From NCBI GenBank assembly GCA_021821085.1, contig JAKACV010000018.1:1-51040 (forward strand): a stretch of 51,040 nt of DNA. Direction: 5' to 3'. Below the pieces are notes generated by a model. That model did no database searches and had not been told where the DNA came from. It saw nothing but the letters and a program-made list of their open reading frames with translations. Below are positions 39,371-42,453 of the stretch, piece by piece (the first letter of the stretch is position 1; each line of letters begins with the position of its first letter). A program made the position numbers and the translations under genes. This DNA is from Bacillota bacterium (GTDB taxonomy: Bacteria > Bacillota > Bacilli > Alicyclobacillales > SLC66).

Positions 39371-40832
39371 AGTGTCAACTTATTTTGTGTAAACTCTTTT
39401 GTCAAGTTTTCTGCGTGATGCCCGCTTTTGACCACCTCCAAGTTGAATCTTCCATTTCCAATCCCAGTTGAGGCTGTCAAGGTACGCTTTCCCGCCTTGA
39501 CAGCCGGTTCAATCTGTCCGTCCATACTTGTAAAACGGTGGCATTCCACACCTGTGTGGAATCCGCCCTAGCTGCGCTCTTTTAAGGGAGATACGGCATG
39601 ATCCGATCCCCAAAGTAAATCGCAAGCTGTCCCAAAATCTGTCCCCAATTTGCGATCCTCATCGTCCACTTTCTTGTCACTTCCATCGTCGCCAGGTAGA
39701 GCATCTTGGTCAGCGCCTCATCGCTTGGGAAGATGCTCTTTCCCTTCGTCACTTTGCGCAATTGACGGTGATATCCTTTGATGATGTTTGTCGTGTACAT
39801 GATGCGTCGCATCTCGACTGGGTACCGATAAAACGTCGCAAGTTCATCCCAGTTGTCCCGCCATGTCCGCACACATAGCGGATATTTTTTGCCCCATTCT
39901 TGTTCAAATCGATCCAATTCCAGGTGCGCTGCTTCTTCCGTCGGCGCTTTGTAGATTGGCTTGAGGGACGCGGTGACCGCCTTGAAATCCTTGTACGATA
40001 CGTACTTGAGTGAATTTCGTATCTGATGCACAATGCATTTTTGAATGTCCGAATTCGCAAAGCTAGCCGCAATCGCCTCGCTGAATCCTTTGAGGTTATC
40101 CGTGGAGAAAACATGCACATCCTGAACCCCACGCGCCTTAATCTCCGTCAACACGCCAAGCCAAAACTTTGCAGATTCGTGCTCGCCAATCCACATCCCC
40201 AGCACATCTTTTTGTCCGTCAAGATCGATGCCAACCACCATGTAGGCTGCTTTGTTTTGTACATGACCATCTTGCCTGACTTTGTAGTGAATGGCATCGA
40301 GAAAGACGATCGCATAGACCAGCTGTAACGGGCGATTCTGCCACTCTCGAGAGTTGGCGAGATCTCCATGCCGTAAATTTGGTGGAGATGCGCCCCTATA
40401 TCGCGGGTGCTCACACCCCGCGCATAGAGTGCGATAACTTGCTCTTCAATGCATGGCATGCGCCGCTGATGCTTCTTGACGAGAATGGGATCGAACTCAC
40501 TTTGACGATCACGGGGGATCTCAAGATCGATCGTGCCAAGGTCAGACTCGACTGTTTTTGAGCTGTGGCCATTGCGACTGTTCTCGGTTTGCTTGTTCTT
40601 GGTGTCATGTTTGGTGTAACCCAGATGCGTGTCCATTTCGGCTTCAAGCATCTCCTGCATGGTGCTTGCGAGAGATCCTTGATCATGGATTGCACATCGT
40701 TCAAATCTTTCAAGTTGCTTTCCTTAATCTATTTACGAATTTGATCTTTGGATACGAGTTCCATACGTTTCATCTTCCCAAGGTGAACTCCCTTTCGGGG
40801 TGTCGGGAGTTTACACAAACTATTTTACACCC
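39371..40832 (-). mobile_element. IS256-family insertion sequence, degraded
   Basis: The ends carry matching inverted repeats: TTTGTGTAAACTC inside 39372-39396 and GAGTTTACACAAA inside 40807-40831, with further partial identity outward. The inside holds a broken IS256-type transposase. No target duplication was found by eye. Confidence 0.65.
39582..40713 (-). pseudogene. IS256-type transposase, frameshifted and internally deleted
   Basis: The reverse strand shows successive pieces of one Mutator/IS256 transposase. The start (MKDLNDVQSMIKDL) changes frame near 40665 into MQEMLEAEMDTHLGYTKHD and IEEQVIALYARGVSTRDIGAHL; near 40345 about 15 residues are missing and the frame shifts again, with REWQNRPLQLVYAIVFLDAIHY, then VVGIDLDGQKDVLGMWIGE and GFSEAI, ending in the usual helical C-terminus. 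Catalytic Asp regions are present but the protein cannot be made in one piece. Confidence 0.85.
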
Positions 40833-41602: not shown

Positions 41603-41638
41603 GAAAAATAGGAGGCGATGTTGCCGCTCCTATTTTTC
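41603..41638 (-). terminator. Terminator between the riboswitch-controlled gene and ypiF
   Basis: A 12-bp stem (41603-41614 with 41627-41638) whose arms end in A/T runs, so it can work on both strands. Confidence 0.75.
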
Positions 41639-41655: not shown

Positions 41656-42141
41656 TTAAAATCGAGCTTGCCCAAATGTTGCTGTTTGATTGACAAAATA
41701 ACCTGGCAAATCTAGTGCCTGATCATCTTCCAATCGCTTCATGCCAAGATCGCGCAATGTTTGTCGAATACCTTCGTGGATAGCCTGTTCCATATCTGGT
41801 GCATAGCGATCATTCATAGAAAGTGCTTCACGGATACCTTGACTTACAGATCTCGTCACATAGGACACATCAAGTCCCGCACAAACAAGACCATGTAAGA
41901 CACCTCGTGTCGTTTCGGTAACAGAAAAGCTATGCAAAGGAACTCGGCTCAATATTACACCCATAATCGCATGTTGAGCTATTTCGGGAATCTCACGAAT
42001 TAAAATTTCCGTGTCTTTTGTCGTGTTGCAATACATCGTGACTTCATGTGTAATAACTGAACAAATACAGGTTTCGGAAGAAGTTTCTTCCAATTCTATG
42101 CCGCGAATTATTCCTTCTTGAATATCATGTACAATCGTCAT
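41656..42141 (-). CDS. Unrecognised protein behind a c-di-AMP riboswitch
   Basis: A 161-residue protein with no signal peptide and no membrane helix. It contains four loosely similar helical units: IQEGIIRGIE, TTRGVLHGLVCAGLD, VSQGIREALS and IHEGIRQTLRDLG, with cysteines near residues 23-25 and 36. The fold is not known to me. GGGGAAA precedes the ATG at 42141. A c-di-AMP riboswitch with terminator lies directly upstream and another terminator follows the stop, so the gene is a single-gene unit controlled by c-di-AMP. Known members of this regulon handle potassium, osmolytes and cell-wall turnover. Confidence 0.65.
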   Translation of the reverse strand: MTIVHDIQEGIIRGIELEETSSETCICSVITHEVTMYCNTTKDTEILIREIPEIAQHAIMGVILSRVPLHSFSVTETTRGVLHGLVCAGLDVSYVTRSVSQGIREALSMNDRYAPDMEQAIHEGIRQTLRDLGMKRLEDDQALDLPGYFVNQTATFGQARF

Positions 42142-42182
42142 GTCAATTTCCCCTTTTCAATTTTAGACGCAAATAAAATAAA

Positions 42183-42208
42183 AAACCGTGACAATCATTC
42201 AGTCACGG
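42183..42208 (-). terminator. Terminator of the c-di-AMP riboswitch
   Basis: CCGTGAC (42202-42208 read in reverse) pairs with GTCACGG (42186-42192), followed on the reverse strand by TTTTTTATTTTATTT. Confidence 0.8.
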
Positions 42209-42211
42209 AAG

Positions 42212-42385
42212 CGCGAATAAAAAGGAAGTGGTTATCGGCATAACCATTCACCCTCTTTCCGCTTACGAGGTTAGCTGTCGGATTCGGGCCGAGAGTTGCC
42301 CTACGAATCTAACGATTCGATTCACCCCAAACAAATTGGTTCCCCCGCTTCCGAACTTCGGAATTGAGCGCTATAGTATTAAACT
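42212..42385 (-). ncRNA. c-di-AMP riboswitch (ydaO/yuaA leader)
   Basis: On the reverse strand the aptamer core is read as GGAAGCGGGGGAACCAA, then GGGGTGAA, GTAGGGCAACTCTC, CCGAATCCGACAGCTAACCT and CGTAAGCG, in the order of the ydaO/yuaA class (Rfam RF00379). These motifs form the two c-di-AMP pockets. A terminator follows at once. In this class ligand binding usually favours termination, so high c-di-AMP should switch the gene off. The boundaries are approximate. Confidence 0.92.
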
Positions 42386-42453
42386 GTAAGCTACTGCTAT
42401 TATTCATATGATACCTCACTTTCGTTTAAACTACAATAGCTAAATAAGGCACA

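Follow-up and report, generated by a model that had tools for sequence, protein, structure and literature searches.

A c-di-AMP riboswitch recurs upstream of an uncharacterised, predicted helical-repeat protein in Bacilli related to Sulfoacidibacillus

Results

Layout of the switch-controlled unit

The minus strand of the window (the whole stretch of DNA analysed, 51,040 nt) carries a compact unit, in which a c-di-AMP riboswitch aptamer of the RF00379 class and an intrinsic terminator precede a gene for a 161-aa protein (Table 1). The aptamer matches the covariance model over its full length (cmscan, model positions 1-134, E 6.1e-25) without any broken pairs, its 108.2 bits lie above the RF00379 gathering score of 38 bits, and it is the sole Rfam match in the 51 kb window. 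The RNA is thus an ordinary member of its class, with nothing unusual about it. A preliminary description, made from the sequence alone, had claimed a textbook ydaO/yuaA aptamer on the reverse strand, followed by a terminator and by only one gene before the next terminator, and had named the lack of a covariance-model match as evidence to the contrary; the Infernal search confirmed the aptamer, and the terminator behind it, the lone ORF and the second terminator are all present as described.

The terminator of the expression platform starts about 35 bases past the aptamer end and appears in the predicted fold of the leader, and its hairpin is kept in most relatives. The candidate promoter upstream of the aptamer is not among the matches of a strict consensus promoter scan; an echo of it, with a -35 TTG and a TA..ATA -10 at matching spacing, is seen in nine of ten aligned leaders. 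Since the candidate promoter, the aptamer, one gene and a closing terminator follow one another, the unit can be read as one promoter, one switch and one gene. Elsewhere in the window (39582-40660, minus strand), a transposase-like gene, IS256-type by eye, is split into two overlapping frames and is probably inactive.

Table 1. Features of the riboswitch-controlled unit, in window coordinates
Feature	Position	Strand	Basis
Candidate sigma-A promoter, TTGTAG-N17-TATCAT	42408-42436	-	sequence reading
c-di-AMP riboswitch aptamer (RF00379)	42244-42380	-	cmscan
Aptamer segment proposed as antiterminator 5' arm, AGTTCGGAAGCGGGGG	42342-42357	-	duplex energy and shuffles
Proposed antiterminator 3' arm, TTCGCGCTTCCGTGAC, overlapping the terminator 5' stem	42202-42217	-	duplex energy and shuffles
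Expression-platform intrinsic terminator, CCGTGAC-N9-GTCACGG followed by TTTTTT	42180-42208	-	sequence, predicted leader fold
Ribosome binding site AGGGG, 8 nt ahead of the ATG	42150-42154	-	sequence
Gene for 161-aa predicted helical-repeat protein without known family; ATG at 42141, stop 41658-41656	41656-42141	-	
Terminator closing the gene, hairpin AAAAATAGGAG...CTCCTATTTTT and T-tract	41604-41637	-	73-nt stretch folds at -20.2 kcal/mol

An alternative pairing in the leader

The G-rich P2/P3 strand of the aptamer (42357-42342) can form a duplex of -18.4 kcal/mol with the 5' stem of the terminator and its flank (42217-42202). This duplex is the strongest among all aptamer windows, its energy is matched by 1.7% of dinucleotide shuffles, and the pairing of CGGAAGCG with CGCTTCCG is kept in most close relatives. 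Because the antiterminator does not exceed shuffles in several distant relatives (L012, L015-L017, L021, L039, L042 and L105), the exact switching pairs are uncertain beyond the close relatives, in which alone the pairing is convincing; for the leader in the window, the duplex suggests an antiterminator. One homologue locus (L018, 1309-1444) is without a terminator, and its aptamer ends one base ahead of the start codon, which is likely a translational version of the same switch-gene pair.

A conserved gene with homologues in two orders

Compared with two congeners, the gene differs at codon positions 1/2/3 by 20/7/95 and 25/12/80 substitutions, a third-position bias that marks a real coding gene under purifying selection. 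Homologues, collected by protein sequence alone and independently of the riboswitch, comprise 30 loci in 29 Bacilli genomes from 16 genera and four bacterial families. They occur in 14 of the 18 genomes of the window's own family and, by profile search, in 27 of the 59 genomes of its order, and three loci come from a second order of the class, where two genomes carry them. When the two groups of homologues were aligned separately, with no member in common, their profiles matched each other with 98.6% probability (E 6e-16). Among named records, Sulfoacidibacillus thermotolerans Y002 comes closest, with 85% identity across the protein. When 398 genomes were sampled from the whole phylum, the window's own genome alone gave a match, and a plasmid search with one distant relative gave none; weak class-level matches inside ORFs of about 870-900 aa were put down to chance similarity over a short stretch of a large, different protein. 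By these searches, the protein family has so far been seen in just two orders of Bacilli, that of the window and one other. One genome (G147) holds two diverged copies (L105 and L091), each behind its own RF00379. The third-position bias and the 30 homologues rule out that the protein is a fragment, which, together with membership of a known family, was an outcome that the preliminary description had singled out as fatal to its proposal; neither occurred, as the gene is conserved and without a family match.

The riboswitch stays with the gene

RF00379 lies directly upstream of the gene in 26 of the 30 homologue loci, covering 14 of the 16 genera and four families: in all 14 loci of the window's family, in nine of 13 loci of the sister family and in all three loci of the other order. 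At the remaining four homologues (three genomes of genus g18 and one of g25) it is absent even at E 0.1, so the switch is not indispensable. Since most genomes of the order hold only about 3-10 RF00379 sites, chance adjacency would be expected well below 1% per gene. The link between the switch and the protein is strong, and the check called for in the preliminary description, whether homologues recur behind the same riboswitch, came out positive.

In the window, the gene is flanked by reoY (UPF0302 and IDEAL) upstream and by a creatininase-type gene (PF02633) downstream. Within the window's family, six of the seven genera have reoY as a neighbour, and the creatininase-type gene usually occupies the other flank; genus g2 and all the other families lack reoY at this place, while the riboswitch remains. 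Other neighbours, named by reading translations rather than by profile searches, include a histidine kinase (L011), a polysaccharide deacetylase with a TauE-like permease (L039), a GarR-like dehydrogenase with an HAD phosphatase (L022, L038), and etfB with fabI (L105). Switch and gene thus stay together while their surroundings change, and the reoY neighbourhood, confined to one family, was downgraded as a functional clue. Because the pair recurs across at least 14 genera in varied neighbourhoods, the 161-aa protein is a genuine, uncharacterised member of the c-di-AMP response.

The window's genome, a relative of the acidophile Sulfoacidibacillus with an assembly of 2.85 Mb, encodes two diadenylate cyclases (DAC, PF02457) above the cut-off and carries four RF00379 sites. 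Its other three switches precede genes for an NlpC/P60 endopeptidase, a LysM-3D protein and a DapB-type reductase. In the last case (L005, 1501-2627, contig G000:C33), RF00379 lies about 120 bases ahead of the dihydrodipicolinate reductase gene (PF01113, PF05173), which connects c-di-AMP with the supply of diaminopimelate/lysine.

Several further arrangements of RF00379 were observed among the genomes surveyed. Tandem c-di-AMP aptamers, 350-500 bases apart, occur at G031:C118 (39532 and 39884, ahead of a UspA-like gene), G025:C1 (1060800 and 1061152) and G024:C1 (631004 and 631504). Some genomes of the sister family have unusually many sites (20 in G047, 18 in G034 and 16 in G023), and at seven loci of that family (L108, L110, L112, L114, L116, L122 and L127) RF00379 is located roughly 350 bases upstream of an rplS (bL19)-like gene; it may control this gene or a small ORF that lies in between. 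A small, basic, conserved ORF with the pattern ELKKxLxNxExxxxLDKLxHxNRSRxWxxPxxGRxSDxRY lies behind RF00379 in L120 (G034), and the same ORF is found downstream of the homologue in L091 (1267-1470, G147).

A predicted alpha-solenoid outside known families

Single members and alignments of the family gave no match in Pfam, NCBIfam, PHROGs, PADLOC or PDB sequences; isolated sub-threshold matches to unrelated families were never common to several members. The domains of the known c-di-AMP regulon (K+/osmolyte transporters, NlpC/P60, Rpf, LysM/3D) were not detected in the protein by Pfam or NCBIfam, nor were any common to the family members, and no HEAT, ARM or other repeat profile was among the Pfam matches up to E 10. 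The protein is acidic (pI 4.9) and its sequence contains no segment of transmembrane strength. In a profile self-comparison, a repeat of 22 residues emerged, with starts at residues 74, 96 and 118 (z 4.6). The AlphaFold model (pLDDT 83.6, pTM 0.79) is all-helical, with helices at residues 3-17, 23-40, 51-64, 71-87, 92-109 and 115-131, and the model of a relative of about 18% identity (pLDDT 91.5, pTM 0.88) has the identical order of helices. With the repeat, the same alpha-solenoid in both models and matches to designed repeat proteins, the family shows what is expected of HEAT/ARM-type tandem helical repeats, and the protein is predicted to be a cytosolic alpha-solenoid of 22-residue helical repeats. 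The preliminary description had expected a soluble protein with repeated helical units that matches no known regulon family, and had called for a structure prediction; the results agree with it on each of these points.

Among the best Foldseek matches to solved structures is a designed helical repeat protein, 5cwb (E 6.8e-4). The designed repeat proteins DHR4 (5cwb) and LHD101 (7mwr) have a like helix-turn-helix solenoid and align by VIA over 131-156 residues with rmsd 2.9-4.3 A; they are, however, without evolutionary relation to the protein, and their Z of 12-14 lies within the chance range for helical models. Because helical models reach this level of Foldseek and VIA scores by chance, we claim no structural relative. 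Foldseek and VIA-align gave no natural relative, the best PDB matches being mainly designed repeat proteins; the closest natural matches are weak ones of the sort that helical proteins typically give, none of the viral structure models passed E 0.001, and the predicted fold gives no function. Across all 28 alignment rows only Arg79, Gly80 and Gly124 are invariant; within the window's family, the invariant positions also include Glu33, Ser65, His83, Gly84, Gly89, Asp91, Ser93, Glu118, Asp131-Leu132-Gly133 and Asp140.

Discussion

We propose, with a probability of about 0.72, that the locus is a monocistronic c-di-AMP OFF switch controlling a cytosolic, acidic alpha-solenoid, probably a non-enzymatic binding or adaptor protein acting in turgor or cell-wall homeostasis. 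The aptamer, the terminator, the single gene, the conservation of the pair and the predicted fold come from our analysis, and the ligand and the OFF logic from the literature on the class. At high c-di-AMP, the ligand would bind the aptamer, which would retain its G-rich P2/P3 strand, so that the terminator could form and transcription would halt ahead of the gene. At low c-di-AMP, the same strand would pair with the proposed 3' arm, disrupting the terminator and allowing the gene to be transcribed. Following this OFF logic, the protein would be made at low c-di-AMP, a state which in B. thuringiensis corresponds to potassium limitation (PMC6488665). Being a soluble alpha-solenoid in which no catalytic motif is evident, it most likely acts by binding other molecules, and its partner would probably belong to turgor or wall control. 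Transporters and wall-remodelling enzymes are the targets published for this RNA class (PMC7266159, PMC3766115). The role in potassium, osmotic or wall control put forward in the preliminary description may be read from the ligand and from the other three switch-controlled genes of the genome (NlpC/P60, LysM-3D and DapB), which somewhat favour the wall over potassium. More tentatively, and with the odds rather against so specific a role, the family may be a dedicated low-c-di-AMP effector, produced solely at falling c-di-AMP, that binds a transporter, a protease adaptor or a wall enzyme to adjust turgor; if so, a regulon known so far mainly for transporters and wall hydrolases would gain a protein-level arm.

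Some riboswitches of other classes vary in sign, and binding of c-di-AMP might accordingly turn this gene ON. We consider this very unlikely, since the aptamer is followed by an intrinsic terminator and contributes its own core strand to the alternative pairing. Moreover, the characterised members of the class are OFF switches: RF00379 is so described (PMC9960051), and at the B. thuringiensis kdpFABC switch c-di-AMP promotes termination in vitro and reduces expression in vivo (PMC6488665). The OFF type is therefore most likely by analogy, well supported by the class and suggested by the switch's own leader. That switch and gene adjoin by accident, or that the ORF is no gene or a decayed member of a known family, would agree with the lack of a family match in every library, but is scarcely credible for a gene under purifying selection whose confidently predicted fold is conserved and whose homologues lie behind RF00379 in 26 of 30 cases, where a random gene would do so in well under 1%; the recurrence of the pair already refutes it.

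The protein might itself bind c-di-AMP or another nucleotide, serving as a receptor or sink whose synthesis is subject to feedback through the switch. Its regulation by the same ligand would suit such a role, and the invariant Arg79-Gly80, joined in the window's family by His83, Asp91 and Asp131, could line a pocket; yet Pfam detects no known c-di-AMP-binding domain, and the residues invariant in all rows number only three, which makes a nucleotide-binding function unlikely in our view. We attach a similarly low likelihood to an adaptor in envelope control tied to the ReoY-ClpCP-MurA pathway. The gene adjoins reoY in most genera of the window's family, and the genome's remaining RF00379 switches precede wall or DAP genes, but the riboswitch stays where the reoY neighbour is missing, in g2 and all other families, and, with a candidate promoter and a terminator of its own, the gene may adjoin reoY by coincidence.

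Few computational clues to what an orphan protein does are as strong as its association with a riboswitch. In this case, the association extends across four families, divergence to about 15-20% identity and changing neighbourhoods, and therefore places an unannotated protein in the c-di-AMP response with confidence. It also offers a concrete entry into how relatives of Sulfoacidibacillus respond to falling c-di-AMP, beyond potassium uptake. Judging by the libraries searched, the protein family appears to be undescribed; to our knowledge, it is not among the named members of the c-di-AMP regulon, and a member of it may stand as 'hypothetical' in Block 2010 or Nelson 2013, the main catalogues of genes behind this switch.

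Compared with known systems, the switch shares with the RF00379 class the aptamer sequence and structure over the full model, a terminator platform and a host with c-di-AMP synthases, and differs in the gene it controls, which is not one of the described targets. A counterpart in layout is the kdpFABC switch of B. thuringiensis, where its own promoter, the aptamer and an intrinsic terminator likewise come in this order ahead of the coding region (PMC6488665), but which controls a potassium pump operon, as opposed to a single cytosolic protein. The actinobacterial nlpC and rpf switches belong to the same RNA class, the nlpC switch of C. glutamicum appearing to be translational (PMC9960051). NlpC/P60 is also a target elsewhere in the window's genome; the actinobacterial targets, however, are wall enzymes with known domains.
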